NCBI RefSeq assembly: GCF_003073045.1
Contig: NC_037594.1
Span: forward strand, 23,442,927 to 23,506,926
DNA from: Pomacea canaliculata
Taxonomy: Eukaryota > Mollusca > Gastropoda > Architaenioglossa > Ampullariidae
DNA: 64,000 bases
Direction: 5' to 3'
Shown here: positions 2 through 62,352 of the stretch, one piece after another
Numbering within the stretch: the stretch's first letter is position 1
How the letters are laid out: the number at the start of each line of letters is the position of its first letter
Notes under the pieces: model-generated
What the model was told of the DNA's origin: nothing
Databases searched by the model: none
What the model saw: the letters and a program-made list of their open reading frames with translations, nothing else
Program-made: the position numbers and the translations under genes

Positions 2-2598
2 TCCTTTGAAGAGGCAGAGCAGAGGATTGATCGACGATTCCAGCTTTTGAATATGTATGAAAAACAGGCATGCAGCGGGCAGATGCAGCACAGAAAATCC
101 TCAGAGAGGAAGTGGTCCGTGATTTTAAGGCAGAATTCGTGAGGTTAGGATATATGCATACAGAAGCCCAAGAGCTGGCAGAAAGGAGACTGTTTCTTTT
201 AGACAAATATCAAAGAAAGGGGTTTTCCCCAGAAGAAGCTAGCAAAAAATTAATTGCTGAGGAATTGGAAGGAAGAGATTCAGATGCTTTAATGAGGCAA
301 AGGCAAACCACAGTTGATTACAACCACTGTACAGAAGCTTTAAATTACAGACCAAACATTTGGCCAGATCATAGTTCTCATATTTCACTTCAGTCCTTAA
401 CAGCATGTGGGAGTGGTGAAGCAGCATCTACTTGTGCCCCGGAGGGTTATTCTGCTGACTTTCAAGAGAGGAAGAGCATGGAATCTTTTTCTCCGACCCT
501 AGTGTCTCGACTTGTCAAACGTCTGGCAGATTATCGTAGGTTGAAGGAAGAGGTAGAAGTTGTAACACCCACAAAGACCTTAGAAAAAGATCCAGAGGAA
601 GCCATTACTAATCGTATAGGTAAGCTTCTTCAAAAACTTGTTTCTCAGAATGTCACAGTAACTCAGGCAGACAGAGAGATTGAAAACTATAAAATAACAG
701 AAAAGGTTTCTAACAGTTTCCAGCCAAAAGATTTGCGAAATATGTCGGAAACAGAGAGAGAGCAGCTGCAAGAGGAGTTTGAAAGGAGCTGCAGAGAAGA
801 AATTCAAAATCTGTTTGCACTGCTCTTGGAACATCAAGTTCCATCTGATGAAGCCAAGGCTAGACTGCAGACTTTGAAGGTAGCGCATGAAAACAGAAGG
901 CAAGCTCTTTTCTCAGCTGACTTCATCAGAGATAGAAACAGGGAAAAGAGTGAGAGAAAGCATGGCTTTCAAAAGGAAACTTGCACTGGACATAAGGATA
1001 CATTGTTATCTGTAAGCGAACCCAGTATTGAATATGATAAAAGCCACTCTGCAGATTTTACCTTGGATGGACATTCCATTTTTCAAAAGCAAGATCAGAG
1101 GCAGAATTCTCAAGAGCAAAGAGAATTCTTGAGGTCTTCTAGTAGTGATGTCATTAGCAACAAACATCTCAGAACTCTGAGTACATGTAGCAGGAGTACT
1201 TCAGGAAGTCCAAAGAGAAAGAGGACACACTTGGACAGTAGAAGTCAAAGCAAGGAGAGTAATGTATCTCAAAAAAGCTTCAAAAAATTGTACAGTAAGA
1301 CAAAGTCTCTTGGTGCATTAGATTTTTTTGAACAAATATTGAAAGGTCCTACTGTTGGTACTAGCAGGGTTAAATCTCCTTTGCCGAGCTTAGGGCGTTC
1401 TCAGAAGAGAACTGATTTTCTGTCTTCTCCTTCGAGACCTGTTTCTTCATTTACACACAACAGATCATTCTCTCCATATTCACGAAATCGGTCAAGATCT
1501 CCACGGTCAAGAACAAGATCCTCATCAAGATTTTCATGGAGAGGAAGCAGGCAGAGATCTCGTTCCATTCAGCGTTCTAACTCAAGAGAACATTCCAGAA
1601 CAAGATCACCTGCATTTAAGTCACAGCATTCAGATAAAGGACATAATCTATCAGCTGTGGGTCATTCCAGGCTCTCTTTCAGCAGCTCATGCCGATCAAG
1701 GTCAAGATCACCAAGGTCTAGGTGGTCAAGACAAAGGGAATATTCATCAAATGAGAGAATCAAACACTCATTCAGGAGAAATAGGGATGCTTCTTGTTCT
1801 TCGGAAAGACCCTTTTTGCAGGGTTCCAGACATCGCTTTCGCACCAGATCACCATCGTTAAGATCCAGACAGTCTTTTGCAAACAGGTACAGTGAAAAAT
1901 CAGATGGCAGGAGAGGAACACCATCGCCCAGGTTACGAACAGTCTCACCACCTACTCCCACAGATCATTCTCCATATAGGAGAGTAAGTGACGAGTTGCA
2001 ATACAGAAGACATTCTTCAGGAATGAGAGATCAATTCAGTTCTCACTCTGAACAGTTCAGAACTCAGTCAAGAGATGTAAGCAGATGGAGGCAACACCCA
2101 ATGAGGGGGGATTTCTATGGTGACAGACTATCAGTAGAGAGACATGAAGGAGAGCAAACAGAGTCTAGGCGTTCTCGAAGGCCTGTATTTCATGATGAGA
2201 GGATCAATCCATTGGATAATTCCGCTGAGTTTCATTTCCAGAGCGGTGTGTGGTATGATTCAGACCTTGAGAGTCTTTCATCTCTCAGAAGCTCACCAGA
2301 AAAAGTGTTACTTCCAGAGCAAGGACCTAAATCTAATCAATCTATACACAGCATAAATCATCCTGATAAAGCAAAGAGACCCTTGAAAGAGCGTAAGAGA
2401 ATGCCATCAATGGAAAGCATATCTTCCTGTGATGATGATGAAGTGTTTGGTGTTAAACAATCTAGTTCTACAATGAATGAAGCGGTAAAAAGCGAAGCTT
2501 CACCAACAGATGATACGAGAAACTGCATACACAGGAAGGACAGGGTTTCACCGGCAAGTGATGCACACAACTATAAAACTTTACTTAAAGAAAAATGA
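2..2598 (+). CDS. SR-rich protein with ~26-residue helical repeats, 3' part of gene
   Basis: The gene enters from the left edge, so its N-terminus is missing. The visible protein (about 865 residues) opens with copies of a helix-turn-helix unit whose core reads G-x4-EA-x3-L/I (for example GFSPEEASKKLIAEEL), then a lysine/glutamate-rich stretch, then a long Arg-Ser domain (roughly window 1380-2200, many RSRS, SRSP and RTRS runs), and ends at the TGA at 2596-2598. RS domains are typical of nuclear splicing or RNA-processing proteins; a nuclear RNA role is inferred, not shown. The same unit recurs in the next gene downstream, so the two look like tandem paralogs. One frame break lies near base 68: upstream codons (ending NMYEKQ) and downstream codons (MQRADAAQKI) are in different frames, and one extra G in the short G run restores a perfect repeat unit. 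That makes an assembly error likely. No zinc finger is visible in this part. I do not recognise a named ortholog. Confidence 0.75.
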
Positions 2599-4498
2599 TT
2601 GCATTCCAAATGCAATTTATCAAATGGAAGTGATGGGGACCTCTTCAAACCCCAGTTTTAAGGCAGCATTGACTAGCAGATCTAGCCTAAAGGACTAGAA
2701 TTGTTGTTCAGCTGCAAGGTGCAATTTGCCTGAGCTTTTGAAAGCGTTGAAAGTTTAATGCACTTAAACTGGATATTTCACTTACCAGCATCTTGATAAC
2801 AAGCCACTTTCTGCACTTATTGTTGCTTATTTGTTTTCGTGGCGAATTCTGTGATGAATAAATTTACATCTGTATATAACAGAGTAGCTCAGCAGCTTGT
2901 CATATAGATCAGATCCAGTTAGTGTTGTGGTCAAGAGCTTATATGTTTGCACTTGAGTAGCTGATACATTTGCTTTCATGCTTTTTTATTATATGTTTGC
3001 TTTCCGATAGAATTGTAGTTTTACCTCATTATTGCAGGGCCCCTTGTGACTAAGAGAATTCATTAAAAAGCTAGGAAACACCTCCCTTGCAATCACCATG
3101 CTGAAATATGTCATTACCTTTGACTGTGGATATGTAAGCTATTAAACCATTGTATAAGTGAGATGATAACAGGTGTGAAAGATGTTGCTGTGTAGGTTTC
3201 TTACATTGGTGATTGAGCAGGCAGCCTATACTGTAAGGGAGGAACCATCAATAAAATATATCTGTAACCTTTTGTTTGTTTGTTTGAACAAGGACCTATG
3301 ACAAACAGAGCCTGTTCATTGAGTTCCTGTCTTTTGCCTGCACAAGGCAGTTAATGAATCTGTTTAAATTAGTGAAATCATTTTGTTTCTAGTCTAATTA
3401 GCAGTTGCATTAAATATTCATTGTAGATTTACTGAAGTTACCATGTACAATGTACATTGTACTGACGCTCAGAATCATTTTAATTACTGGGTCAACTTCA
3501 ATACAAGGTACTAATTCCCAGGATCATAGCATAAACCCAATCCATTTACAAGAGATTAGCATTTTCATGTATAGGTGGAGTTTTGAAGTGCCGAGAATAT
3601 GCTGAACATATGCTCCTTGCTGTTCTGTTGGCTGCTACCGTAACAAACCAACACTTATGTGAAATTATATTTTTCTGTGCATGGCAATATTTTTGAAGGT
3701 TTGTATCTTGTAAACAGAAAACTCTTTGGTTAGGTCTTGGGAGGAGTTGTGTTGAAATAAAAATAAGCTCAACGAATTAAGAAAGAAAACAGTTTATTAC
3801 AGATCTGTCTCCAAAACCATTTGCTGTTAATGCTGTGTCAAAAGTATTTGCTACATACTTGTGCAATAATAAGCTTAAACTGTACTTGCTGATTTGGGAA
3901 AGAATCTTCATGAGAACTGTGTATTCCATATGCAGTTTTCTTTAATGCTAATGACAAAACCAAAGTAAGAAAACAAAATGGAGGAATTTAAATGCAGACT
4001 GTTAAAATCACATTTCTTGTTTTGCTTACAAAGTGTTGAACTTTAAAAAATAAAAATTGTATTAAATGTATGGAACATTTTCTTGAATAAAAAAAACAAC
4101 AACAAATAATTACTTGTTTGACAGAACTATTCTTGACAAGATTTTCATCTAGTTTGTGTACTCCCAGTAGTAAATAGCTATTAGCAAAAAAATTATGTAG
4201 CCAGTGTACTGCAGTGCCAGGGTAATTTGCTTTCAGGTCTTTCTGACTTTTTTCGGGATGTTGATTCTTGAACAGCATTAACTCATTTTAAACCCTGGAT
4301 CCCCAGCCTTTCCCCTGAACTATTCTAAGAACTTTTTTTTTACTTGACTTCCTCCACCCCCCTTAAGTCCCATGACATAAATATTTGCAATTGTAGCACA
4401 AAAAACTCTTTATATGGTCATGTTGATGCTACACAAGGATGTATATTATTGCTTGTTAAACTACCTTTTAGACAGAGCACTGTCGTCTGAACCTAGAG

Positions 4499-4712
4499 CA
4501 GTGGTTCTTAACCTTGTTTGAGGTACCGAACCCACAAGTTTCATATGCACATTCACCGAACCCTTCTTTAGTGTCATGCACATTCACCGAACCCTTCTTT
4601 AGTGTCATCACGAATTGCGGGTGTATCTTGACGTGGCGGAGGCTCCGCCAAACCCCTGAGACCGACTCACCGAACCCCTAGGGTTCGATCGAACCCTGGT
4701 TAAGAACCACTG
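4499..4712. mobile_element. hAT-type MITE, 214 bp, with 8-bp target site duplication
   Basis: The ends are perfect 15-bp inverted repeats, CAGTGGTTCTTAACC and its complement GGTTAAGAACCACTG. The flanks are an exact 8-bp duplication ACCTAGAG (4491-4498 and 4713-4720). CAG...CTG ends with an 8-bp duplication are the hallmark of hAT elements. The element has no coding capacity and so is non-autonomous. Inside, a 31-bp unit is repeated in tandem (4545-4575 and 4576-4606). The undamaged ends and duplication suggest a fairly recent insertion. Confidence 0.9.
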
Positions 4713-6319
4713 ACCTAGAGGCATACCAATTTGGTACATGTGTTGTGCAGCAAGCTTTTTTCTCCAGGTCGCCCCAGGAATCGGTACCAGACTCCACAGA
4801 GGGTTAGGAAAATGTACAACAGCTAGAGAATAATAACTATAGGATCTGTATAGTGCATTTAAAGGGGACGTGTGATGTATGTCACAATCGAGTACAAACA
4901 AGCACATTTTACAAAACCCTTGCCAGCATCATTTAGAAGTAGACTGCCTAAAAAAAGGTCTAGACCCCAGCCTCTTTATATGACTGCCCTTGCGGTATTG
5001 CGGAAGTAGGTATTTAACTGTATATGGTATTGTGTTTGTAGTTTGACCATGTAGGTGTACATCAATAAAGATCTCAAAACAGTCATACTGACAGATATAA
5101 CTCTTCCATCAATAGTAAAGAAACTAAACTATGAAAAACTTGTCTCCCATTTATTACAGTCATTATAGTACAAAAAGTAAACATGAAAATCAGAGATGAT
5201 ATAACGATCAATGGTTGAAGGGGTGAGTTATTTGAAAATTGCAAATAAGTAAGCATCAAACAGGAAATAGCTTGCATATAAAGTGATACAAAGGAATGAT
5301 ATCTTTCCTTTTCGTGGTTTTTCGCGCATCAGCATTTCTTCCGCCGTACTCTTGAGTCTACAAGATCAGCTATATCCGATCTCAGGGGAACCATAGACCA
5401 AAGAGGATCAACTGGGCATTCTAGACTCCCAGTGTTTAATGGAAGATCAAAGGGAATCACTTCACATGGACAGTTGAAATAAATTTGAGAACCATATGGG
5501 TATGAGTAGTGATAATCTTTCAGCTAAGTGTCTCTCAATCATTTTATTAAAAAGATAATGATTGAGATATCTGCTGGTAACTTAGAATACCTGTATTGCT
5601 AGTTAAACATTACTCAGAAATTTGTGCCAAAGATATGATTGTCAGGTACAATGCGTTGTCCGGGTGTCATGATGGGTTTTAAAGACGTAACGAAATGATA
5701 AAACATTTTGAAAAATGTTTCCCATGCATGCCTAATAAATGTTCTGGTGGAATAAAAGAAACTGATGCTGAAATATTAAAGCATGTATAAATGATGTATA
5801 ATGGCCTATTGAAATCTGAAAAGGGAAATATAGTCCTATCGTTTCAGAAGGTTGAATGTACAGCTAGAGACGATACTCGTGTAACTAAATTTTTCTTTGA
5901 TGTAAAAGCAACCTTTGCTTCTGCATTACATATACGAGGTTAAACATAATTTAAACTTAAAATAAAGAAGGAATTTTTCTTCGGCCACTGGACATTCGAT
6001 CAGTCGAATAACTGCAGTGAGCTTCATGTTCTACATATTTTATTATTACAAATTATCAGAACTGCTGAAATTACAATATTTTTAATAAATTAGTTTTTTT
6101 TTTCAGTCTGTGCCGTGAGTACCAAAGGAACGCGTTTGGATACGGATGAAACTTTTTAGGAGGAATAGACGAGATCATGATTTGAACTCCAAGTATTAAA
6201 TACCTACTGACTTAAAAGTGATAGAAAAAGTATGCTAAAATATTACGTAGCATTTTTAATGATGCTAATGGTACTATAAAACTTTAAAATTTAAGAGGTT
6301 GGTTTTTTTTTTTTTGGTA

Positions 6320-6453
6320 GAGTCGCGTCATCGATGTTTACTTTTTACTCTTCATGAAGTTCAAGGTCATTACAGGCTGGCCATCATGGCGTCAACGTGA
6401 GAACAATTTTCAATGTTTATATCGGTTTCTGTGCCAAGCCATCAAGTTTTAAA
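6320..6453 (+). promoter_or_regulatory. Presumed promoter/5' UTR of the zinc-finger repeat gene
   Basis: Upstream of the chosen ATG at 6454 lies TCAAGGTCA at 6361-6369, an exact match to the extended nuclear-receptor half-site used by ERR/SF-1 type receptors. An upstream ATG at 6386 opens a four-codon frame (ATG GCG TCA ACG TGA), which could act as an uORF. A GTGAGA at 6397 could instead be a splice donor ending a short first exon. No experiment supports any of these; all are sequence matches only. Confidence 0.3.
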
Positions 6454-9400
6454 ATGGATAGAAGATATCAGCGATACGAGGATTATTTTACGTTTCCAGA
6501 TCCTTCTGTTATTTATAACGAGCAAGCTGAACTTGCAGCACAAGTTCCTTTCAATGTTAGCAGAAACGTTGGAGTATCCGCTTCGCTAAATCAAAATGCA
6601 ATGAGCACTACGTCGCGTGAACTAGAATCGTTTGAAAGCGAGAATGGTAGATTAGGCTTGCAGCAGCGAAAGTTTTCAGATATGATACCCCGTATGCAAG
6701 GTATGGGAGGGGACAATATGGAGTCTGAGAACTTAAATATTACAGGATCCCAGATTAGGAATACAACCTCAGGAATGCAAGTCAGAGCAGCAGACGCACA
6801 GTCACATGAGTGGTCAAGAAATGTGGATTTGGAAATGTGCACGAATAAACCTCAAAATACTCAACACGAATTCGAAGACGATAGGTTGGAGAGGGCAGAA
6901 CCATATCAAATGCATAAAATGTCTGTTGAGTACAATGCAGAAGAGAGTTATGATTCTACTTTACCCAGAAGAGAACCGGCATACCAACAAAAGCAGGCTT
7001 ACAGTAGAGTATCAGACAACACTGTATTCTCTGATGATCAGAATATTGAACAGGACCATTTTTGGAGGGATGATTATGATAATACTTTTAATCATGCTCA
7101 AAGGCATGAAGGTTACCCGCAGCTCGGAAGAGAAAGGGATGATGGGTTCTTACCTAACCAAGATCATTATCATGATCATGATATGCATACTTATGGCAAG
7201 GACATACAGCAAGGAGGCTTCAGTAGTTATGGAAAGAGATGGCCATCTCAAAGAAATGAAAATCCTTTTGACTCCAATGAATATAATGCACCACAAGATT
7301 ATCAATCAGATGGTTTAGAAATGCTTGTCCATGAAAGGTGGGATTGCTCCAGAGAAGGAAATTATTCCTCACAACATGAGTGGCAGACTAACAAAGCTTC
7401 TGCATTACAGAGCAGAGGACGGTATCCATCAAGGGAAGAGGGCAATTCTCAAAGAATGGTCAACATTTTAGGGGAGAGGAATTTTCTCGAGGTCAGCGCC
7501 ATCAGAACAAACGAGGAAAATTTCCATCCAGAGGACACACATTGTTACCCAAGCAAAATCAGACAAGAGGACGTGGCAGTCAACGTGGGTCAAGAGCACA
7601 TCCTGGGCAGGGCCGTGGTAGAGGCCGTGGTCAGAACAAGCCAGACCAGTTAAGGAAGCAGCCATATGGTGATAAACAAAAGAGTGCAAGACAAGAGAAA
7701 GCAGCACTGATGGAAACATCATCTAAAGGTCAGCAGAATTTGGGAAATAAACCAGAACATGCTGCATCTAATGAAAAAGAGAAAACTGTGACTTCATCAA
7801 AGGAACTACATATAAAAAACATGGATTTACAATGTGAAAATCCTAACTCTGGTGAGAAATTTGTGGAAGTGGATAAAAAGCAGAACACAGGAGCCTTTGA
7901 GAATCAGTCAGGGTCAGTTAAATCTGAAGAGAGGGATGCTCTTAACAGTGCTAAAGAGGATGCACAGCCAGGTGTGTGTGTGAACTATTTATTTTTGTCA
8001 ATGATAACAGTAGAAAAACTTTTAAAAGTAACTGTTTGCTCTGTAGTCTTGTGGTTATTGTGCACAGTTTCACAGCAGACTTCTGGTCCAGCTGTAAGGG
8101 CAGAGACATGTGAAGTATTATTTTGTATATGGTTTTATTTTTGCTTGCTTTTATTTAAAAGAGAAGAGAACTCTGCTGCACGTCTGATGCTTAGAGCTAG
8201 GAAATGGGTCCACGCCACCCTTCTCCTTTGTTTCCTACACTGGCTTCCCATCCGTTCTCGCATCCAGTACAAACTGCCCGTGCTGTGTTTTAATTTCTTT
8301 GCTGGCACTTGCCCTGATTATTTCTCTAAACTGCTTTTCCCTATGTCCCAGCTACACAACTTCGCTCTTCATCTGATGATCGTCTCCTTACTCTTCCTGT
8401 CACCAAAACAACAACATATAGCCACAGGAATTGTGGTTATTGTGCAGTGAAACAATGGAACTCTCTCCTTTCCATATCTGCAACCTACCCACTACTGAAT
8501 CCACTAAAAATGCACCTCTTCCATAAACATTACTCCTAACAATCTTTCCCATAATACTAGTCCTTTTTCACATCCTTCCTTTTGCAATATCATGTTACTT
8601 TCAGCTCTTGTTCTTGTTATTTGGTTCCTCTTTGTGTTCTCTGTATTTCATTTTATTCTTCATTTAGTATAGTTGTTTATTCTTTTATAGCTCATATGTT
8701 ATTTGTTTTCCTGTCCATGTTACGTTCTTGTTCTTAAGCGCTAAGAGTATGCTCCTTAGGAGTGATTATGCGCTTTACAAATTTTGCGTTTATTATTATT
8801 TATATGCTTTTAGTAAACCCATTCTTTGAGTAAATTCACTTGATAATGAAATGTTGATTTATAGTATTTGTATCGATTTGATAAAACTAATGCATAGCAG
8901 GATGATAACTGAGTTGTTTTTTTTTCAGATGAAAAAGACGATGTAGATGCTGAGGATGTGGGTGAAGAAGATACTTCATTTTGCAAGCTATGTGCAATGT
9001 CTTTTGATTCTTCAGAGGTGAGCATTACAAATGCATATTACATGTATATACAAACATTGGAACAGCACTTGCAAAAGTTTTATATAAAAAAATGTAAAAT
9101 ACTCAACTTCTTTTAAGTTTATATTTTAGGTTCTTGTTTGATTTGGTTGGTAAACGTAGATTTTTTTAAGGTTGAATTTTATAGCAAAGAACTAAAGTGT
9201 CTTATTTTACAGAAGGAATGTAAAGTTTTTATAGCTTAGCAGCGTACCCATTTTTGTTTCTTTATTAGCTGAAAACTAACTTTTTACTCGGTCATCTAGG
9301 TTTTTGCCAGAGACCAGATACTAGTCCCTTTTTTTTTTGTCTGAGCAGAAGTATTTCCGTCATACTCGAGGTCTGCTGCACACACAGCGTCTGATGGCAC

Positions 9401-12400
9401 AAGATACACCTAAACCTGGAGTGTCAGATACTCAAAATATCAACATCACTTTAAAAGAAGAGCCGAGACCTCCTATTTCACAAGTTGAACAAGTTGTCAG
9501 GCAAAAAACAGTCAAACTTTCACCTTCCAGTGTGCAGAAGAATGCTTCAGCAGATACTAGCCAAGGTGCTTTAACATTTTGTTCAGTTTTTACTTGATTC
9601 TGTCTAGTAAAAGTAAGCAGACTACTATTAGCAAACCATTGAATGTATAGCATTGAACTTTTGTTTTCTTTTTGACCAAGAAAATGTCCAAAAGAAGAAG
9701 CAGAGACTTATCCTTATTATTAGTAATACATTGCCATGTCCACCTCTTGTAGTGGATTATCATATCTTCATTTGAAAAGAAAGGTCTGGACACTGATCTA
9801 TGTCACTAACTGAAAAGCAGACCACTGAAAAAAAACAAAAACAATTGAAAAGATATTTGTTTCACATATCTACTTTTGTTCAGGCCTGGCGCTGATAAAC
9901 AGCTCTGGTTTTGACGAAGATGATGAGTTTGAAGAAGAAGAAGAAAATCCAGAAGAGACATTTGCAGAAGATGGAGCAGTTGACAAGGAAGGGGATTTTG
10001 AAGAATTTCGATGCAAGGTTGTAATTGCATTTCTGTACATTTCTAAATCTTATTTGACTTAGTAAAGTTATTGAATAAATGCAGACAAGTTTATCACTTT
10101 TGAAGATTCCCTGCCCAACTGCTTCATTTTATTACAATTGTTATTTTTTTGTGGGGATTGTAGTTGTGTGACGTGAAGACCACTGGACCAGTCAGCATGA
10201 GAGCACATCTTTCAGGCAAAAGTCACAAAATGGTATGTATATGTAGTTGTATTTTGTTTTATGCTTTTGCAGCTTATATATTATAAGATTGTGTAAAATA
10301 TGTTAGCGTGAGGATGTATTTATTGTAAAGAATGATGATGAAGGTTGCTTCTCACATGACTTGTACATACACATTTTTGTTTTGTACATATGCATGTTTT
10401 ATTCATATCCATCATCTGCAATGGGGATAAAATGGGGAAAATATATTTGATACACAACACTTTTTTCCTATTTAAGTATTAAAGATTTGCCCCCAAAGGC
10501 ATTTATGGCGGTGCGAAAAGCTACAAGAAAGTGAAAAGTGCAGAGTGGAGAAAGCAAAAATATTTACGAAGTATTTAATATTAGTCATCTTTTGTATTCT
10601 TATTAAACATTATGAGGGCATTTAAAGTAACATATTGTACCTATAAATAACTTCTTCCAGAATGAACTTCCAGACATGTTTTGTGATATAATGTTCAGTT
10701 GTATTGCATCCTGACTACACTGCATATTGCTCATGATATAGGATTAACATTTGCTTGTTGTGGTGATTCGTAAAGGATTAACTTTGCCCATTTTAGATTT
10801 TCTGAGATATTTAAAACACTGAATGTTTTAGTAACTGGTTAATATAGGCCATTACAGCCACAGTGGACCATGAGCTTGTGTCCACCTTAGGCGATGCTTG
10901 GAAGTAGTGTGTTAAATAAGAAAACTTGGGCTCAGTGCGTGAGTTAGTTGGGCTCAGTACGTGAGTTAGTTGTTTCTGGATACAGTTTTGTTTGAAAAAT
11001 ATATCATTTGGTATGAATCAAAACAATATTTTTGGTGCAGAAAGGCATTTTAACGAAAAGAAAGAACAAAACAGCAATATGACAAGGGCATATGAGGAGA
11101 AGTTCATAAAAGGGGAGAGACGTACAATCTCCAAATGCACAGATACATAAAAAACATATTTGCAAATACCAGTCTATGGCTGCTTCTCTGTACCATTCTT
11201 TTGGAAGACTTTATGTATCCCTTGATTATTGAATACAAACAAGACTTGATACTTTGGTGCTTACCAGAAGACAAAAAAAGACATACCTTTGTCTAACATG
11301 CTTATAAGTAAAGTGTACAGGACTATTGTGGGAAAAAAGAGAAATGACTGGAGCATGTCTGTTGTCATCTATTTTAGGACTTTTGGATATATGATTTACT
11401 CAAAAACAACAATTAGTGGACTTTTTCCTTAATTCATGCACGTCTTGAAAAATAAAGCAGTATTATGATATTAGTGTTGTGTTACTGTTGTTATTTGCTT
11501 ATCCACCCAACAAAACATCTATCACATTAAATTTGCTTATATTGTTTACCCAAACATTAAAGGTCTATGAATTTTTTTGTCAAACAGTAAGTTTTACTTT
11601 TGACTGTACATAGGGATTTTTGCCACTGCACTCCTAGGATTGGATGGAGTGAGAGAGGAGTAAAATTCAGAAAAGTAGTTGTGAAAGAAATGCCAAATGG
11701 CTGACACATCAGCTAGTAGCAAACAAAATCCAAAACAATTGTTCAGAGATTCTGAAACACTTAGATGTCTATTATTATGTGTAGATTACTAATGTGCTTT
11801 GTGGCAAGTTACAAGTCACAAATCATCCTGGTAGAATTCCATGTCTTACTCTAACCATATGCTATCAATATTTCCACAATTTTGTGGCATACCTCACCTC
11901 AAAAGAAAAAAAAAAGGTTACGTGCATCTGAGACTACACCTATCAGTTGCATTTCCTATGTCTTAAAGGAACTGCACTTAACAAGACAAATGATAATGAT
12001 TTGCACACCATCAGAAGTTTGCTCGTCATTAATTGTTTAGAATGCCATATACTCGGACAACTCTGAATTGGATATTTGGCTTTTGATGGAATTTCATTTT
12101 TACAACGCTGATGATTTTCGTGGCAATTACTTTTTGGCAGCAAATAAAGACGTTATGCGCATGTCAACTTTTTTCTGAAGGTAAGTAACCAGACTCTTCA
12201 CACAAATATATATATTTGAATTATGCTTGATAACGTTTTTAGAGGTGTCATCAATTTGATAAGCTTTTCTTGCATTCAAGGGTTAGGGTTTCAATGAATT
12301 ATAGAATTTATGACACATACTTTTTCTTTGTCAAGTAACAGTTAAATCTCATATCTATAATATTTTCATTGCTTTGTTTGCTTACATCATCTTTGATAAG

Positions 12401-15400: not shown

Positions 15401-18400
15401 ATTTGTGGAAAACAAGAGAGGAGTATTACAGAGAAAACACTTATCAGAGTTTGGTGATTTTTGTTTGTTTGTTTGTATGGAATCCCTTTTTTATCCGAGT
15501 TTTTAAACTGATTTATTCTTGTTTAAAAACAAATTTGTTTTTGAATATAAGAGATTATGAGACCTTTTGTAGGGCAAAACATTATAAATGAAGCCAGTAG
15601 CAGAGCATACAACTAAAAAATACAAACAACATTATTATAGATAATGCAGTGGCAAACAGGAACAAGGGAAAATAGAGCAGTCAGTCAAGTGTGTGTTGGA
15701 TTTCAAAAGGATCTTTCCAAAAAAATGGGTTTTGAAGCCTGGCTTGAAGGCTTCAAATGTAGACCACAGACGTTATACAGTTCAGCATGATAGGGTTTAG
15801 CAATTCCAAGTAGTGTCTGAGACGAGAAGTAAGCTCTTCCAAATTTGTCCTCTAATGGGTGGATCTGAGCAGGTCAGCACTAGTAGATCAAAGAGACTGT
15901 CATTGGTGATGGGTAGTAGGTTGTGTAGGTTACATAGGGCAACTTGATGCAGCTCGGAGTTATTGGTTTCACAATGCCTGCTTGATATAAAATGGCTTGC
16001 TGAAACAAGTACTGCATGCACATCAGGGTAGTAATGTGCAAAACTATTGTGCAGTATGTCCTTAAGAAAAAACATTGCATTTATAACTTGTTAGCAATAG
16101 CTAACCATTCATGTTTGTAAAGATCCCCACAATCTTTCTGTGCATCTGAACTAAATTGTACGCCTGCCATCTGCTCACTTTTTGGGAATTATAGTTGATG
16201 ATGAAACTAAACTTTTTCAATTTAATTTTGAGAAAAATAATCAACTAAACCCACTATTTCAACAGAAAATAGTGGGGCTGGACAAAAACAAACAACCAGT
16301 CATTGCAGTCCAAAGAAACTGCAATGGCATTCCCTTCATAGCCGTTCCCAGTATCAGGAATCCGAATTTTCTGATAAACTAGAACTTGATGCAATATATC
16401 AGTAGAAATTTAATCAGTCATAAAGAAAGTGTGTTTATAAATGTTTGTATCAAACGGTCAGCGTTTTTCGGGTTTCCTGATGATCATTTGAAAACATTGT
16501 TCAAGGATGGTATGTATGCCTGGTAAGCATATTCTGTTTTAAACAAACTTGGCAAAGAGCATTGTTTTAAATACTATTTATCTTAATTTAAATCTTTATT
16601 TACTTTGATGTATGGTTTTGTGTAACTATGTATTGTGACCTGAATATTCTTAATGGCAGGAGCTATAAAAATGTTTTGCTTTTCTGTTGCAGATTCAAGA
16701 GGCTGTGGAGAAAGGCTGTAAGTGTGTCCACAGAAAGAAAATTGAGGCCACTGCTGCTTTGACATACAGACAAAAAAAAATTAATGTAGCTTTTTATTTT
16801 AATGAATAATTAAGGCCAGAAAAAGTTAGGATAGCTGATTAATACCTACTATGTAAGTAAAAAATAATAAATTCCCTTTGTTTCATTTAAGCACATACCT
16901 TGAACATGCTCAAATGTGGGATCCCTCATTGAAAACAAAAATTACCAAAGATGCCTGATTAAACAAAAAACAGATGTAAGTTTAGACTGCTATCCTTAAA
17001 TGAATCCTTAATGTCAAGGCCATTTTTTAAACACCATTTACAACTAAATTATTTGGATAAATTTATCAAAATGTAATTAAATCTCCTGACCATATGTATA
17101 GTGGATTTGTTTGATGTATCTTACCCAACAAATAAGCATTCATACACATGACGCTACCTACATATTAGTATATATATAATGTATATAAATATATAAAATA
17201 TAATAAATGTATTTTAAAAAAATTATTGACAAATATGATACATTTTTTTGTCCTCCCCACCCTTTCAATGGCATTCTACTTTCAAAATGTAATGTCCCAA
17301 GTGTTTTGAAAGAATAATGTGTTAACAATGAGAGTGATACCCTACTAGTTTATGCCACATCCGTCACTAACTGATCCACTCGTGCACATCTATGTTTTTA
17401 AATAAGAAGTCAATAGGTAACTTTATGTGTGACTCCAAAAGTGAGCCACAGCATGAAGTTACAGAATATCTTATTCAAGTACTGCTGTACTTTTAAAAAA
17501 ACATGAAAACAATATTCTTGTTTTGCAGGGGAAAAATGTTTGTCTATCTGTTTCCCTAAAGTCTTAAAGGGCTTTGTGTTTCATAACAGTGGGTAGAATC
17601 AAATTGGCTAAAACTTTGTCATTTTTGAAATGCCATGTTGGCCACATTATGCATTTTCTACCTAACCAGACCACATTTGAATGTTTCAATAGTATTCTTT
17701 AGTTTGAAATCTATGCTGAGATCTTTAAAAGTCAGAGTGCAAACGTTTTTTTGTCGATCAAATACACCTTTCCTTCTCAAAATGCAAACTTCCAGGCATG
17801 CACAAAAATGGTTTAAAAAGAATGTATATTGCTATGCTTATGATATAAAGTCTGCTTCATTGGATAGCTAGGATCATATATATTTACATATCTGTGGATG
17901 TTCATGACATGGTTTTGACAACATCTTCTACATGGTAATGTTTGTAGGCTCGCATCACAAAAGCAGCAAAAGTAATATATCTGAAACAGTATGTGAGCTC
18001 AAACCAGCTATTTGGGGGAAAACCCCCACTCTTTAAGACCTTTAGTGATCAGACTGAGTACAAACATTTTTCCATCGGAAACCAGTTGATAATACTTATA
18101 ATTTTTGTCTACATGTGGGTGTGTATGTGTCTGTAGGTTTTTTTTTATAGAGATATAGTTCGCTTCTTAACTGAACAATCAGGTTCACGTAACAAATTTG
18201 ATGTCCTGTCATGACAACTGGTCCATCGAGAGTTTTTTTAATAAAAATTCAGTTTTGAAGGAGACAATTGCGAACAAATTTTGCAGTTGAAATGTTTCTT
18301 AAGGATTCAAGTCACAGAATTACAATGCGGTTTATCCCTGTTTGCACATTTTAGTCTTCATATTTTGCAGATAATGTACAAAACATTATTGTCATGAATT

Positions 18401-21400
18401 GTGTGATGTTAAGCTAGTTAACTGTGAACTTGTGTGAGCAGTCCCAGTTCCTCAGAGAGTGTTGAAGAAGATAGGGCCTGATGCACAAGTGCCTCACTCT
18501 GAATACAAGCCTTCCGTGAGCTTAATACCTGTGTCAGGTCCCTCTATACTAGTTGACACTCTCAGAGCTGTCCCTGAGGCAATTGTTGGTGAGTATGTCT
18601 TGTGTAAACCTGTCTGATTTAAAGAATTAGATATTTAATACTTAAATTTTGTGTTTGTTTGAGCACATGTGCATGCACGTGATTATTTTTAAATGAAAAA
18701 CCTTGAAAGGTGTAGGGGAGAACATTTATGTTGATATATGTTGAAAAGTCTTTTTTTTTTAATTAAATGTAAAATAGTATTTTGGGAGATTGTGTTCAAG
18801 TGGTCTCATGAGCGACAACCACACAGCTTATCTAAATAATAAATAGTATTCTTCATGGTATAAATATAAAGAGTTTTCCTCTTTTTCTACATTTGTTCTT
18901 TAATCTCCCACCTAGTTCTCTAGAGGGCTAACAATACCTGGAAATGCTGAATCTTCTAATGTAGCTGTGTTTCTTTTGATGCTGTTTGGCAAATAACACA
19001 TTTTTAACAAAATTATGAAGAAGTCTGCACAGTTAATACATTTATCAGCTCAAGTTGAAGTTATTTATAAACATTAAAGAAGAAACACAGCATGAAACTT
19101 TTTAACAATGCAGTTTATGAGGCTTTCTCTGTGGATTTTGCTGCAGGTTTGCCAGCGGTCAAAGAATACCAGTTAAGCAAGCAGCCATCATTCACCTGCA
19201 CTCTTTGTGATGCTCAATGTGACCTCTCTTCTATACAGACCCACATAATTGGCTCCAAGCACCGCATGAAGTATCTGGTAAGTTCTCTCTGTGTTTTTTT
19301 TTTTTTTTATCTTCAGCAAAGAAAATAAGAATGAATGAGAGATGTGGATTCTGTTCTGAGCACATAGCTGAAAGGCCATCTTATGGTATGACTATGACTG
19401 AGAAAGAAATACCAGCTATTCACCATGTGGATTAATGTCTAATCAAATTCCTAGAAACAAGGGAGAGTTTGTGAGAAGAATAGTTGATTGTAGGTTGAAA
19501 TGCTAATGTCAGAAAGGGAAAAATAATCTATAGAAATCAATGCCAAATAGACTTGTTTCTCATATAAGCTTTGGGTTTCCTTTTTTAAGCCAGTTTTTCA
19601 AAATAACAGATGTAAAGAAAAGCAGCGCTTAGGTTATATTTTGTTTCTACAGCATACTAGTGCTTTCTTTAGTGAAATGTATGCAATGTTTCTTATTTTC
19701 TTGCTATCATTTTCATGCATGGCTTAGTCCTTGGTCATAAAATAATCATATATAAAGGCTTATAAGCTTATTCCGTAGTTTCTGACATGATATAAAAATA
19801 TTGTTACAGTAATCTGCAAAGAATGGCTTGCTTGCTAAATCTAACATAAGCCAAGTTAAATTTAAGTTAAAATGCATGACCATTGCAGAAAACCAATCAT
19901 CCTGATATATATGAGCATGTTAAAGCCCATGGTGGGAAAAAGTCACAGTTGTCAGCATTCCTTGAGGAGGTGTGCAGTGACATTGAATCCAAGGAAGGAC
20001 GTGGTGTGCCTCTGGTTCAGAAACCTGCAGCTAAAGAAAGCACAGAAAAAGAGGAGGGTGGTGAGGCTGAAGATAGCCAAGAGTCAAGCAGAGCTGTTCG
20101 TAAAGAGGATGATAGTGAGTGTTATACAAATCAGCATCATAGACAGCCTTTCCTTTTCACAATTGTTGATATATGGATGAAGTTATTGGTGGAATTATTA
20201 TTCAGCAGACTATAGTTATAAAAATCCTTTAAAACCCCAGTGAAATTTTCAGAAAATCTAAAAAAAAAATTTAAATATGAGGGTGAGTCAATAATTATCC
20301 TGAGTACAGCTATGAACTTTATTTGAATAAAAGGAAAAACTTAACATTATTTTTTCAACATTATCTCTTAGCTTTTCAACGCGCTTTTTCTGTTGTGCAA
20401 AATCTTTAAACCTTCAGTGAAAAAAAAACTTTTGTCTGAACAGTTATCCACACATGCACCACTTTCTTCAGTTTTTGGTCAGAAGTGAATCATTGATGCC
20501 TTATTGTCTCCTTGAGTGGACCAAACAGGGACACTATCAGGAGAGGGACTCAATAGTAAGCAGTGCTTGAGACTGCGAGGTGATTTTTCACCAGCTGGAA
20601 CTTCTGCCCATACTGTTGAAAGCCTGCAAAGCAGTTTGAGATATTGGCTGACATTTCACCTAGCCCTGGTCTCTCCCTTTCAGACTATATTACCTGTTAA
20701 GTCCACAGTGATAAAAGAAGTGCATTGAAAAGCAAGGAGACTGTATTTAAAAAAAAAAATGATGTTATTGAACGTTATGTGTTGTGATAAGTGTTCCATT
20801 TTCTGGAAATAAAGTTTATATCTTGCTGATAAATTATTCACCCATCCTCATAGTAATAATTGAAATGGAACTTTAAAACCAACATTTCTGTATTAAGATA
20901 TCACTTATTTTCTGGGTTTTGCATATGGATGTGTGTGTTTGGGGATTGGGGTGTTTGTGTGAGAGAATAAGCGGGGCACATATTTTCAAATGCAGGTTTA
21001 TACATTTTTTTAACAACATTAGCAGATACAGATATCTGATTGACTATGTCAACTTCCTGAGAACTCTGGATTGCTGAATTTTGACATTTTGAAAATTTTG
21101 TTTCCCCAGGAGGAGCTTCTAGTTCCATCTCATCTGTTTATGCGTAAGCTAAATCTTTTGTTCTTGTGAGCTGTATACACATGCCTGCAGAGAGCTGTCT
21201 TGCAAGAGTTCGCATTTTTAATATAGCAGAAAGTTTTTATTAATGGAATAAGTACTAAGATAAATTAAATTGGAGCAAAAAAAAAACCATAACTGATTGT
21301 TGTGTTTATCATGATATTTATTGTATCATCTCCAGGAAGCGTTTCCCACATGACATCGTTGTTGCGCGTTACAAGGAAGAAAGAAGAAGAGAAATGGATG

Positions 21401-24400
21401 AACAAAGTTTTGGCCACTTTGAAGGAGGAAGAGGGCGTGGAAGATATCCTGGCCCACCTGATGCATTAAGTTATTATGAAGGTGCAAGAGGACATGGCAG
21501 ACCTTATGATGACTACAACTGGTTCCCAGATCGACCTCCCGGTCCACCTTTTGGTGAAAGATGGGGTAGAGAAGGTGACTGGGACAGAGGCTCGGAACCA
21601 CCTTTTTATGGCCCACCCGGACGATATCCATACTGGGATAACCGACCCAGAGGGTTTTCTGATGAGGAAGAACGAATCAGACGTATGTATGAGTATGAAC
21701 GTCATTCATTTTACCATCCAGCTGCGGGAATCAGCCGTCAGGAAGAGCAGCACAGAATGATGTTTGAGTATGAAAGGCTGGGAATTCCCTACGAAGAGGC
21801 ACGGCGAAGAATGATGATGCAAGATGATAGAAGAATGAGATTGTCAGACATGGTCAGGAGTGGCATGCCTATGGATGAAGCAAGACAAAGAATTATGGCA
21901 GAAGAGAACCGAGTCCTGCTGCTACAGGAATACGAGAGGCAAGGCCTGAGTGCCAGGGAAGCGCGACACAGGATCATCGTGGAAGAAGAAAGACAAAAGC
22001 TATTGGATGAATATGAGAGAAGGGGAATAACTGCTATGGAAGCACGGAAGAGAATTGCAGCAGGTGATATCCGACTGCATTTCACCAGAGAGTTTGAACG
22101 ACGAGGTATGACTCTAGAAGAAGCCAGGATGCAGGTTTTGAGAGAAGAAGAACAGCAGCAGCGCTATCTGGAGTTGTATTATGGAGATGTTCAGCCCAGA
22201 AAAACCTACAGAAGGCAAGAACCTCCTTTATCTGAGGCAGCTTTGCTGAAAAGACATCTGCAGCAAGGGTTAAAATTAGAGGATGCTAAGAACAAAGTAA
22301 TTGCATGTTTAAGGGCAGAAGGTATACCAACACATGAAGCCATTCTTAGAGTTGAAAAGATTGAAGTCACACCTGACATGCTGCAGCAAGAAGAAAACAA
22401 AAAATCTTTAGATGACAGAGAGCGTGGCGGTGGGTATAGAGAAGGACCAAAGCACATAGTACCTGCGGAAGATGAAGACAAGATACAAGCAAAGATAAGG
22501 AAATTTGCTGAAGATGATTTGGACAGTATTTCTGTTGATGAAGCTAAGGAAAGGCTGTTGCAAGAGTACATGAGACGAGGTGTTCCTAGAGAGGAAGCCC
22601 GTCAGAGCCTAATCAGTGAGCTCATCCGGCAAGGTGTGTCACCAGAGGAAGCCAGGAGAAGATTTCGAGATCCTCCAAAAGCTTATCAGTCAGGAAACCA
22701 TTCCCCTTCACCAGACTCGAGTCATAAAACAGAGCGACGAGATCGTTCTCGCAGAAGCCATTCACGTTCTTCCAGTGGCAGTAGCAGCCCATCAAGAGTC
22801 AGAGACTATACCAGGAGGTCAAAATCATTTGGTACAGAGGAGAGAGAAAAGGTTCGAAAGTTGTCACGAGAGTCACAGGCTTCAGAAAGATCTAAAGGTG
22901 AAAAACATCATGGCTCCAGAGAGACATATTCAGGTATTTTATGATGGTTGTGTTGCGTTATAGCCATATTTATGCATTATAAATCATTTTGATGAATGTT
23001 TGATATATAGAACACAATTAGGAACTTCTGACTAATTTGTTTTCTGCTTCTTCTTAGAACGGAAGCATAGAGTCCCAGATTGTGAAGATCCACCAACTCT
23101 CACACTTGGAGAAGAGCTGAAGAGGATGAAAATGGTGAGTTTTCCAATATGGTGCGTTGTGCAAGGGTGAATCAATAGTTATCTGTAATACAGCTAAAAA
23201 CATAATAAAAATTATGCTGCTGCCCATGCTGTTGAAACCCTCCAGAAACTCAAATTTGAGGTGTGAGCTCATCGTCTGTAAAGTTCTTATCTTGCCCCTT
23301 CAATAACCATTTTAGTCTACTTAAGGAGATAGGAGTCACCATCTCACTTCAGACCAACAACTGAAGGAAGCAGTGCATACATGACTCAGCCCAAAATTTT
23401 TTAAGAGTGTGACGAAAGAAGCACATTGAAAAGCAGCACAACTATGTCTAAAAATGATACTAGTTTTCAGTTTTTTATGGATTAAGCTTATAGCTGGATT
23501 TCAGATAATCATCCACTTACCTTTGTACAAAACATGAGCTATAATAAATAGCTTTTCATAAGCAGGATTAAAATTACACTAAAATTTTTGTGGTATGATA
23601 TGTTCAATTTAGATTTCCAACTATTCTAATATATTTTGTGGGCAAATTAAAGAGTGGATGTTTGCACAAATTCTTCAGCTTGTACACAAGTGCATGGGCA
23701 AATATTCAGTCCTGGGCTGAACGAGTATGATCATTTTTTTTAAATCTTATACTTATTTTAAAATGCTGCTTTTATAATTTAAGGGTTGATCTGGTTGCAG
23801 AATTATTTTAAGGAGAGTGGGCTCAATTTATTAGAACATACTATTTTCTCGAATTCTAAGCCAAGTCTGTTCTCTTGACGAGACACAGTCCTATGAATGC
23901 CAGTTCTCACCTGAGTTTTGAAAAGAGGTCAGAATCTCAGTTTATATGATGTCACACAGGGTAGGCTTAGTGATCAGGCAGCTTCTTGTAATCATCTGCT
24001 TAAAGTGTTCATGTTGAATACAGCCTTCAGTTATATCAGAAGTTAAAATTATGGTCTATCCATCAAGGATGCCTGACCTTGAGGGTTTAAGATTCCATCC
24101 ATGTGTGCTTTTCGTGAAAAATTTGATTAACAATTTATGATGTAGTTCCGTAACAAACTAAAGATAGCTCTGTTTTGCCAGCAACTTTGAGCTTAGTTTG
24201 ACGTGACTTGGGTTTACTTTTTTAAAGATACTACGTTTAGGTATGATCAGAAAAAGAACTTATACCCCCTTTTAAAATTATCCAGATTTGTTTTTTCATC
24301 GAACGATGTTTCATGAAAAGGCATATTGAATGCTTCTCATGAGCACTTCTGTATACAGCCAGGTTCTCTGTAAATAAAGTCAAATAAATCAGTGTTGCAT

Positions 24401-25374
24401 CCATAAGGAAAACCAAAACAATCCATCGTGGCCAAGCTAGAAGAAAATCCACCTTGCAGTCCGTATGACTTTGGAACTTCAGATGGCAAGCAGTTGCTCA
24501 TGTAGTCTTCATTGTTTCAAAGTGGAATCAATGGTGAGAGTACCAAGTCTGCATTTACTGCACAAACTTTTGTCACTTAATTCTTAAATCTTTGTTTGCG
24601 TGTATACAGAAACGACGGCTTGAAGCCTATGAAAAGGAACTTGCCCAGAAACAAGCAAAGACATCGACCTCTAGTTCTTCTTCTGAAACACCTAGTACCT
24701 CAACATTCAGTAAAATCAAATTACAATCACAACCCAAGACATCATCAAGTGACCCAGGACAGAAAACAGATGTGAAGGAACTCCTGGAAAATCTAGTAAG
24801 TATAATGCTTGTCTTAAAAAAAATGTCTATTTTAACATTTAAAGGCAAAATTGTAAATCATTTTTCAGCATCTTGGCACAAATGTGTCATGTACTAGGTT
24901 CATGAGATCATTTATCCATGTGCATGTCTTTCCATCTGCAGACAAACAACCTCATCTCTAGTGAAGATGATGCAGCTGCAGCATTACAGGTCTCCAAAGC
25001 TTTAACATCTGCTCTTTTGAAATATCGCTTCAAAGCCACCCCAAATGAAGAGGTGAGTAAAGTATTGAACGTTTGGAAGGGTATTACCTGCAAAGAGTGC
25101 ATTTTTTTTTTTTTGGTAGCTAAAAACAGAAAAAAAGATAAATTCCACATTTAGCAGTGATCATTAGCTGATGGCTGCATGTTCTTGAAACTTTCCTCTG
25201 GCCTACATTATGCTGTTATAAGTTCACAATCAAGATGTGATTGTTTTTGTTGCTAGTTTATTGTAGTTGTGCTTTTAGTGTTTCTAACATTGAATGTTTC
25301 AGGCTTCAAAATCCCAGCAATCTTTGGCAACCTTTCCAGAAAGACGAATAAGTGATGTAAAAAAAACTGTTTGA
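6454..25374 (+). CDS. Matrin/U1-type zinc finger protein with helical repeats, RG and SR regions
   Basis: I joined exons 6454-7971, 8929-9017, 9349-9565, 9884-10017, 10164-10232, 18442-18588, 19147-19277, 19889-20114, 21110-21143, 21336-22933, 23058-23134, 24610-24795, 24942-25052 and 25303-25374, about 1,536 residues. Three C2H2 fingers of the U1/matrin type, C-x2-C-x11or12-H-x5-H, lie near residues 526-551, 650-675 and 750-770; two are split by introns. Such fingers usually bind dsRNA or RNP components. Exon 1 ends in an RG-rich stretch (RGRGRG near 7600), exon 4 encodes an acidic run, exon 10 holds at least six copies of a 25-27-residue unit with core EYERRGIxxEEARxRI (about residues 970-1300), followed by an SR-rich tail and a charged helical C-terminus. 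The start ATG is preceded by AAA. Two places need one base to keep frame: near 7440 (an extra G in GAGGGC turns the 3' half into the RG-rich frame) and at 18442-18447 (an extra C). A nuclear RNA-processing role is inferred. I do not recognise an ortholog. Confidence 0.72.
8165..8800 (+). mobile_element. LINE 3' end (non-LTR retrotransposon tail) in intron 1
   Basis: The translated stretch from about 8175 reads ARLMLRARKWVHATLLL, then FLHWLPIRSRIQYKLPVL, the usual C-terminal tail after the reverse transcriptase of CR1/Jockey/I-group LINEs. Further conserved words (AVKQWNSL, LHLFHK) follow in shifted frames. The 3' end is GCGCTTTACAAATTTTGCG followed by TTATTATTATT, a typical simple-repeat LINE terminus. 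Only the tail is present (5'-truncated), and frame is lost at least twice, so it is an old dead copy. It lies in the sense direction between exon 1 and exon 2 of the zinc-finger gene. Confidence 0.75.
12574..12768 (+). CDS. Possible alternative terminal exon of the zinc-finger gene
   Basis: After a good acceptor (CCCCTTCTCCCAG) the sequence is open in exactly the phase left by the exon ending at 10232, for 64 codons (INQPPSPGLDEIKPELLLS ... FDAVRK) to a TAG. Used as a last exon it would give a short protein with two zinc fingers but no helical repeats or SR tail. I see no convincing donor inside it that would rejoin the next exon, and skipping it keeps the long frame. An intronic frame open by chance is the alternative. 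Confidence 0.35.
   Translation: MNQPPSPGLDEIKPELLLSTVSSTVPNDPVCYTISTIRKDTLTACASAGLNWMLAGIKFDAVRK
12935..13085. repeat. Probable interspersed-repeat relic (LINE-like)
   Basis: The stretch around TTGCTCCTCAAGGAGCATAG and GCCGCAACAACACCTCGCC has the look of a conserved segment I associate with RTE-type LINEs of invertebrates and differs in composition from the AT-rich intron around it. It shows no intact frame or ends. The assignment rests on remembered pattern only. Confidence 0.3.
20276..20852. mobile_element. Mariner-like element, internally deleted, 577 bp
   Basis: The ends are inverted repeats of about 23 bp: TATGAGGGTGAGTCAATAAT at the left and the complement TATGAGGATGGGTGAATAAT at the right, bounded by TA as expected of Tc1/mariner elements. 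The interior is too short for a transposase (about 345 codons needed), and no conserved transposase motif is readable. It lies in the intron between exons 20114 and 21110. It shares interior words, for example GAAGTGCATTGAAAAGCA, with the copy at 23160-23526. Confidence 0.7.
23160..23526. mobile_element. Second mariner-like element, ~367 bp
   Basis: The left end CAAGGGTGAATCAATAGTTA and the complement of the right end, CAAAGGTAAGTGGATGATTA, form imperfect inverted repeats related to those of the 20276-20852 element. Interior segments are also shared (CTGCCCATGCTGTTGAAA; AAAGAAGCACATTGAAAAGC), so both belong to one family. This copy is shorter and more diverged. It lies in the next-but-one intron of the same gene. 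Confidence 0.6.
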
Positions 25375-28204: not shown

Positions 28205-29639
28205 TTATTCAGTAGCCTCCATAAGATATTCTATTAGATCTGCACGCTCGCTCTCTTTCTTGAGACCAGCAAACACCATCTTGGTGCCAGGAATGTATTT
28301 CTTCGGATTCTCAAGGTATTCAAACAGGGTTTGCCTGCCCCATGTGATGCCTGCAAAAAACAAATGATAGGTTGGTCACTTAGAATACATGGCAGCATTA
28401 GAAGTATTTTATCATTCTGTTGAAAGTTTTTCTCACTGAAAAATTAATACCATCAGAAGTTGGTTTCATGACAAAATCAAGATGAACTTAACATGAGCAT
28501 AAGCTTATCTTTTTGGGTTTTACCCTAAACTTGTTGGTCTGAAGTAGCAAGCCAACTACTCATCTTCCACATAAGACCAGTAACTTTATTATTATACTTA
28601 TTTTCAAGACTCTACATGAAACCTATTTCAATTGCATTACACTGTTTTTAGCCTACCCTTAAAGGTTTTAGAGAAATTTCAGGTGCAACTGCAAGCCATG
28701 AAACTAACATTTGCTGGCCAAGCAAGTCCCTCTTTTAAAATGCAGAAAATTTCAAATATCAGAATGATAATCGAGTTAAATGTCGCTTTTACATCATGAT
28801 GTTTCTTTCTTTTGGACAACTCTGTTTTTAAAAGTCGATAAACAGCAAAATCTGCAGTGTTAAATACAAAATATTAATTTTCTTTTACTTAAGGAATATG
28901 CTGTGCTAAAGAGAGAGAAAAAAATGCAAATTTTCTTAATTACATAGAGATGACAAAAATTCACAATAAAACCTTAACCGCTGGTGCACTCTAAGTTTCC
29001 TTCTGCATTTTTAAATTGGGTTATAACTGTGTTTCTGTAAGGAGCTTGTGGTGCCATAGTTTTAAGGTGCATGAACAGAAGTAGTGGGTAGAGGCAAATG
29101 GAGTGTGCCCCTAACCCTATGAGTACCACATAAAAGTATAAGTATTATAAAGACCGGCTAATAACAGAAGACCGAAGAAGACAGTGGGTGGAGTTTTTTA
29201 AATATCATTACTTCTGCTCTCAGGTAAACAATTAGACCAAGAAACCTATACATTTTTGAAATGGAGAAAGTTTGAACTTTGAAACTAAAAGTAATGAAAA
29301 TTTCCTTCCCCGGCAAAACCAAAACCCATATTGCCCAAAGGGTTACTGAAATTTTTGCCTTGCATCAGAATTTGGCGTGAATTATGGCACTGTGTGCACT
29401 TTCCATAAACATAGTTGTTCCAAAACTGCACCAAGCACCAATAATTAGTAACTACCTTTACTCTTGTTGGCATCGGTGTAGGAAAATCCTGGGGCTTGTC
29501 CAGTTTTACGTCCAAACAAGCCATGCAGGTTTGGACCAACCTTGTGCTTGCCCCCTGCCTCAACAGTATGGCACTGTGCACATCGCTGCACGAAGAGTTT
29601 CTTCCCCTTTTCAACGTCACCTTCAGGAATGTCTCCCAT
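28205..29639 (-). CDS. CYCS: Cytochrome c
   Basis: Two coding exons, 29639-29456 and 28350-28205, encode 109 residues. The protein starts [16 protein letters not shown], carries the heme-binding CAQCH (Cys-x2-Cys-His), the [18 protein letters not shown] segment, and the axial-methionine loop [14 protein letters not shown]. It is the soluble electron carrier between complexes III and IV in the mitochondrial intermembrane space, and a trigger of apoptosome assembly in many animals. The intron (GTAGTT...TTGCAG) falls in phase 1 within a Gly codon (KSKG/ITW), the same place as the coding intron I recall in vertebrate CYCS. The short N-terminal extension before GDVEKG is common in invertebrates. 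The frame is intact and nothing suggests a processed copy. The next gene on this strand, ZNF622, lies upstream of it and is unrelated. Confidence 0.96.
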
Positions 29640-29650
29640 TATTTCACTTA

Positions 29651-56644: not shown

Positions 56645-62352
<5,708 letters not shown>

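Follow-up and report, generated by a model that had tools for sequence, protein, structure and literature searches.

SHOCT domains are described as short units of about 30 residues with two predicted helices and a strongly conserved Gly and Glu; they are mostly bacterial, and in 89.2% of the proteins that contain them they lie at most 50 residues from the C-terminus (PMC3581485). Three other described systems bear on the genes reported here: the prokaryotic permease prefix domain 1 (NCBIfam perm_prefix_1, NF038403), the U1/matrin-type zinc finger families zf-met (PF12874) and zf-C2H2_jaz (PF12171), the latter described by Pfam as double-stranded RNA-binding, and de novo designed helical proteins, in which rows of helices are joined by short turns. 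We analyzed a stretch of 64,000 nucleotides of the genome of the snail Pomacea canaliculata (the window; contig NC_037594.1, positions 23,442,927 to 23,506,926 of the forward strand), in which a first-pass annotation made from the sequence had noticed two neighbouring genes on the plus strand, here called gene 1 and gene 2, that share a short helical repeat. The two share a core in which a divergent zinc finger of U1 type is followed by a short conserved stretch, a predicted helix-turn-helix array and an S/R-rich tail, and sequence comparison indicates that they are tandem paralogues.

Positions are those of the window, 1 being its first letter and negative numbers lying upstream of its start. 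The window begins inside gene 1; the splice model of this gene combines upstream DNA (stretch L003) with the window. The second modelled exon of gene 1, upstream of the window, holds a zinc finger (C-x2-C-x11-H-x5-H), and the domain difference between the two genes drawn in the first-pass annotation does not stand as described. This finger and the stretch behind it correspond to exons 8 and 9 of gene 2 (19147-19277 and 19889-20114), which encode finger 3, of the same C-x2-C-x11-H-x5-H spacing, and a homologous conserved stretch. The local alignment scores 133; the best of 2000 shuffles that left every C and H in place scored 81. Compared with the single fingers 1, 2 and 3 of gene 2, the finger of gene 1 scores 21, 41 and 99, respectively. 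Over the shared part, 25 of 70 aligned columns are identical (36%). The finger exons are 131 bases long in both genes, and the four introns around them have phases 1, 0, 1 and 2 in both, as derived from the exon lengths. Because the finger sequence, the exon length and the four intron phases all match, the comparison indicates a pair of tandem paralogues and not one split gene. As modelled, gene 1 has no counterpart of three parts of gene 2: the pair of fingers at the front, the RG region and the four C-terminal exons.

At the centre of the repeat unit is a turn that approximates G-[ILMV]-[STP]-x-x-E-A and recurs in both genes at spacings of 18, 24 or 27 residues. We count nine units in gene 2 and six in gene 1, so that the sharing of the repeat first proposed is borne out. 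In gene 2, units v1-v5 (21745-22149) follow one another at 27 residues, while v6-v7 (22231-22365), the weakest pair, and v8-v9 (22543-22677) are each spaced at 18; from turn to turn the series reads 27, 27, 27, 27, 54, 18, 86, 18. In gene 1, units u1-u3 (-193 to 40) and u4-u6 (31-264) alternate at 24, 27, 24, 27, 24. The spacing classes and the alternation are drawn from two genes of a single species, with 13 intervals in all. The nine gene 2 turns were picked by the pattern G-[ILMVF]-[STPK]-x-x-[EDA]-A, and that all nine fit a turn pattern is no evidence by itself; the profile tests given below are the control on this picking. The turn Gly is present in 9/9 gene 2 units, which were picked for it, and a Glu stands five residues further on in eight of the nine (Asp in v6). 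Among the gene 1 units, Ser replaces Gly in u3, and u1, u2, u4 and u5 depart from the pattern at other positions.

When the gene 2 core (166 residues) is compared with itself under BLOSUM62, the score is highest at offset 27, at 1.40 per residue, followed by offset 54, at 1.20; the maximum among 500 shuffles is 0.22. For the piece of gene 1 that precedes the frame break (103 residues), the highest values are those at offsets 51 (0.67) and 24 (0.61), with a shuffle maximum of 0.43. In leave-one-out profiles, seven of the nine gene 2 units score above every one of 1000 shuffles of the unit itself, while one shuffle in 1000 reaches the score of v6 and two reach that of v7; v6/v7 and v8/v9 each overlap by nine residues and are not fully independent. 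A profile built from five of the six gene 1 units (u4, which contains the frame break, being omitted) places 7/9 gene 2 units above the best of 1000 shuffles. At the level of sequence, a predicted helix-turn-helix unit of regular spacing common to both genes is confirmed, with stronger evidence than first stated. A further stretch of gene 1 (592-960) that looks repeat-like is not significant: 8/200 shuffles reach its offset score, and in the profile test it gives 2.7 bits, under the shuffle maximum of 5.6 for gene 2.

The array was modelled with AlphaFold2 in two runs, one of P0004 (with two gene 1 pieces) and one of P0005 alone, as a single sequence. The models give helix-turn-helix units, in keeping with the first impression of the sequence. 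The P0005 model has seven helices, five of which are 23 residues long (residues 42-64, 69-91, 96-118, 123-145 and 150-172) with four-residue turns between them; its mean predicted local distance difference test score (pLDDT) is 79, and block means are 81-94 for residues 21-130. The model of a 344-residue region has the same pattern, its main array having four helices of 23 residues and one of 22. In the model, the 27-residue spacing is made up of a predicted 23-residue helix and a four-residue turn; the other spacings would correspond to helices of about 14 and 20 residues, partly from the model and partly by arithmetic. In Foldseek searches against the PDB, none of the 11 and 15 matches listed in the two runs reached E ≤ 0.001. 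The best-ranked were the designed helical proteins (PDB 8etq, 5cwc, 5cwg), 8etq coming first in both runs (E 0.39 and 0.20) and the others at E 2.6-9.9; none of these matches is significant. The viral fold library BFVD gave 71 matches at E ≤ 10, with none at E ≤ 0.001 among the 50 listed.

As for the accessory regions, the first-pass annotation had assigned three U1/matrin fingers to gene 2. Finger 2, which is split by an intron and follows an acidic stretch (exons 4-5, 9884-10017 and 10164-10232), bears this out, since it scores 27.3 bits against zf-met (cut-off 21.2) and is the best stretch of the zf-C2H2_jaz match for which the whole gene 2 protein passes. Finger 1, likewise intron-split (exons 2-3, 8929-9017 and 9349-9565), and finger 3 are recognised by their C-x2-C-x12-H-x5-H and C-x2-C-x11-H-x5-H spacing. 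The likeness to the two U1/matrin-type families lies in finger 2, over both cut-offs, and in the C-x2-C-x12-H-x5-H spacing, whereas the spacing is x11 in finger 3 and in the finger of gene 1, and no helical array forms part of the family models. With the fingers as query, the PDB sequence search returned one weak match, speckle-targeted poly(A) polymerase (E 0.29). The model PF17003 ('Actin_micro') on finger 3 and the stretch behind it (19147-20030) was rejected as below its cut-off (21.9 vs 27 bits), besides being odd for an actin-like family. The RG region proposed for gene 2 is upheld, its 16 RG/GR pairs in a 95-residue stretch being reached by none of 2000 shuffles. The SR regions hold up less well: counted over the whole S/R-rich stretches, they are largely compositional (see below). 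The definition of an SR protein includes an RRM domain. No RRM was among the Pfam matches at E up to 10, in a scan of spliced pieces that extended to about position 1059 of the gene 1 tail and took in gene 2 outside about 7432-7971 of exon 1; HMMER's filters drop most matches above an E of about 0.1.

The explanation that we favour, tentatively and as a little short of probable, is that a tandem duplication produced two proteins composed of a finger, a helix-turn-helix array and an S/R-rich tail, which act as RNA-protein scaffolds in RNA processing. Each turn would form a small hydrophobic corner, with L and Y/F before it and a hydrophobic residue, A and I after it, while the E/R-rich charged middles of the helices would serve as rigid spacers. 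The array may then form a rod or an open superhelix with several docking sites of similar kind. RNA would be held by the fingers and the RG region, the S/R-rich tail would place the protein in nuclear bodies, and the array would gather partner proteins into an RNA-protein scaffold for RNA processing. A nuclear scaffold of this kind, with the array as a docking rod, is our best guess, and we infer every functional step in it, as the first-pass annotation did for its RNA-processing role. Gene 1, which as modelled has none of the parts peculiar to gene 2, may have a narrower role.

Several results weigh against this explanation. The piece of gene 1 behind the frame break (first 70 residues) is not above shuffles in the offset test (0.13 vs a maximum of 1.14), and units v6 and v7 are missed by the cross-gene profile. 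At 100 degrees, the mean hydrophobic moment of v1-v5 does not exceed that of shuffled sequence (p 0.64), which counts against a simple amphipathic solenoid. The predicted template modelling scores (pTM) of the two models are low (0.36 and 0.52), so that the packing of the helices is not fixed by the model. Pfam cut-offs are not reached by the gene 1 finger or by fingers 1 and 3 of gene 2. The S/R-rich stretch of gene 1 (559 residues) contains 44 SR/RS pairs, where shuffles average 32.8 (35/2000 reach 44), and that of gene 2 (96 residues) contains 10, where they average 8.2 (542/2000 reach 10). Finally, genuine frame breaks would mean damage to one gene or to both.

It is possible, though doubtful, that the array has no fold of its own and is a low-complexity E/R-rich single alpha-helix or coiled coil of the caldesmon or trichohyalin kind, with the regular spacing left as a trace of repeat expansion. 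The composition of the gene 2 core (43% charged residues), the unremarkable hydrophobic moment and the low pTM are all in keeping with such a helix, as is a very weak Caldesmon match to a two-unit piece (E 0.77, 8.9 bits vs a cut-off of 50). However, a turn at fixed spacing is recognised by profile across diverged paralogues in 7/9 units, and the single-sequence model breaks the helix at each turn, with block-mean pLDDT of 81-94 for residues 21-130; both speak against this reading.

Another explanation, which we consider unlikely, is that one or both genes are decaying pseudogenes, as might be read from the one frame break that each contains: in gene 1 at about 60-69, in the turn of u4, and in gene 2 in exon 1 at about 7440-7470, as placed by codon usage. 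Against decay, exons 2-15 of gene 2 (14 of its 15 exons) lie in one frame with GT-AG splice sites, although the sites were chosen by hand. In addition, an unrelated rhodopsin-family seven-transmembrane receptor gene further along the window (53567-54806, plus strand) is spread over three frames: its pieces match positions 1-73, 74-185 and 209-260 of the 7tm_1 profile, the first break leaving no gap in the profile and the third piece being below the cut-off (17.8 vs 30.5 bits). The assembly was made from PacBio reads and corrected with Pilon (PMC6129957). The split receptor gene suggests that indel errors persist here despite Pilon and also account for the breaks in genes 1 and 2, each of which is probably an assembly error.

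More improbable still is that the units are a diverged form of a known helix-turn-helix family, SHOCT, UBA or perm_prefix_1, amplified in a snail protein. The first-pass annotation had seen a likeness to UBA and SHOCT, which the profiles do not support: neither is present among the Pfam matches at E up to 10, from which HMMER's filters drop most of those above about 0.1. The snail units recall SHOCT as described (PMC3581485) in being short, with two predicted helices and with a Gly and a Glu that may correspond to those of SHOCT; they differ in being tandem, internal and animal, with four exons following them in gene 2 and the S/R-rich tail in gene 1. The match to perm_prefix_1 is the only one to pass a cut-off on the repeat (gene 2 region, E 2.5e-9, 36.8 bits vs 30). 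It is made up of five short stretches, mainly the turn, of which the best spans positions 27-43 of the 59 in the model (17/59); gene 1 units have no NCBIfam match at all, and the genome search gave a single perm_prefix_1 match of 15.2 bits (E 8.25), under the cut-off. We read the match as a shared short turn in sequence and not as membership. Among GTDB genomes, 125 stretches fitted a search pattern with no prokaryotic relative confirmed; among IMG/VR viral contigs one stretch did, again with no relative confirmed.

The statement that the repeat belongs to no named family stands in part. No Pfam model is over its cut-off on the repeat units, the sub-cut-off matches being DUF6972 (rejected at 14.9 vs 27 bits), SpoVR_C and Caldesmon; the PDB sequence search with the gene 2 repeats returned nothing at E up to 10; and there was no significant fold match, a weak fold match being no proof of a different fold at so low a pTM. 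What qualifies the statement is that perm_prefix_1, a model not mentioned in the first-pass annotation, passes its cut-off on the gene 2 array. Among the papers listed by literature searches for the architecture, none looked related, as judged by title and the start of the abstract, and ZNF318, considered as a possible family name, was dropped after the papers listed for it gave nothing usable. Novelty is meant relative to Pfam, NCBIfam, the PDB, BFVD and these literature searches, in which the animal data are this genome and the Pfam and PDB entries.

That the two loci are a single gene cut in two by assembly, a case raised in the first-pass annotation, is very improbable: they do lie on the same strand, with 3.9 kb from the gene 1 stop to the gene 2 start codon and a frame break in each, but the succession of a finger, its following stretch and a repeat exon is found twice, each time in that order, the identity of the shared part points to tandem paralogues and not to a continuation, and gene 1 has its own stop followed at 2857 by an AATAAA, which, as AATAAA occurs 11 times between the genes, is compatible with an end there and nothing more.

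Further copies were looked for in this genome (440,159,624 bases in 24 contigs, C5 being the contig that holds the window). The gene 2 array as query found its own place and gene 1 (two matches at E ≤ 0.001). The gene 1 query recovered its own array and matched the gene 2 array in two places and contig C14 in one, the latter at E 4.5, and the finger query found two gene 2 exons, the gene 1 finger (E 0.048) and C5:30224381 (E 0.23, with two stops). We take the places on C14 and at C5:30224381 as chance. No third copy was found, in a search that scored only the best candidates and could miss a diverged one.

The remaining parts of the gene models are as follows. The coding exons of gene 1 are modelled at -4629 to -4557, -2530 to -2400, -1910 to -1739, -1421 to -1370 and -242 to 2598 on the plus strand. 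Its coding start, taken as the earliest in-frame ATG in modelled exon 1, lies about 4.6 kb upstream of the window, and more exons further upstream are possible; a candidate extra exon (L003 7244-7322) was dropped, as its inclusion breaks the frame. The last exon, of which 1-2598 is in the window, encodes the helical units and then the S/R-rich tail, in an open frame from 61 to the stop at 2598. Aldehyde dehydrogenase exons are found on the minus strand just upstream of gene 1 (L003 1519-1887 and 3193-3459); they probably set the limit of gene 1 at its 5′ end.

The hand-built model of gene 2, on the plus strand, follows open frames and GT-AG sites through 15 exons, which begin at 6454 and end with the stop codon at 25374. 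Exon 1 (6454-7971) contains the start codon, a polar N-terminal region, the frame break and, at about 7460-7650, the RG region. The finger exons 2-5 are followed by exon 6 (16693-16717), a micro-exon of 25 bases that keeps the frame, and exon 7 (18442-18588), which encodes a VSLIPxS motif that, by eye, is also present in the first modelled exon of gene 1. After finger 3 come exon 10 (21110-21143) and exon 11 (21336-22933), which encodes a G/P/R-rich stretch, the helical array and an S/R-rich stretch. Exons 12-15 (23058-23134, 24610-24795, 24942-25052 and 25303-25374) make up the C-terminal region, which is not in gene 1 as modelled and has no Pfam match over its cut-off.

Several other observations concern the non-coding DNA and the neighbouring genes. 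A gene 2 intron (8100-8800) and a gene 1 intron (L003 8850-9540) contain non-coding stretches that are alike by eye and look like one interspersed element, and a perfect 31-base tandem duplication lies between the two genes (4545-4606). Rfam gave no match within the window at gathering scores. On the minus strand, the window contains a cytochrome c gene exon (29448-29651; Cytochrom_C, E 3.9e-10) and an aldo/keto reductase gene exon (62194-62388; E 3.1e-6). Also on the minus strand, at 34279-37205, zinc-finger matches fall in the open stretches 34279-34551 and 35580-35849, while 36960-37205 is without a Pfam match; together the three stretches have the look of a ZNF622/REI1-type gene.

At its most far-reaching, and as a speculative proposal that we regard as possible rather than probable, the array represents an undescribed family of animal helical repeats, in which one fixed turn is combined with helices of three set lengths (giving the 18-, 24- and 27-residue spacings) and charged inserts tune the shape of the array. 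The paralogue of uniform 27-residue spacing and the one alternating between 24 and 27 would then be two differently shaped RNA-protein scaffolds derived from one ancestor. If the repeat belongs to a named animal family outside the libraries searched, the locus would be an ordinary gene duplication. If it is a real fold, it would be a natural type of helical repeat whose pitch is set by helix length and which is joined to RNA-type fingers, and the two snail genes would be a paralogue pair suited to testing how spacing relates to shape and partners.

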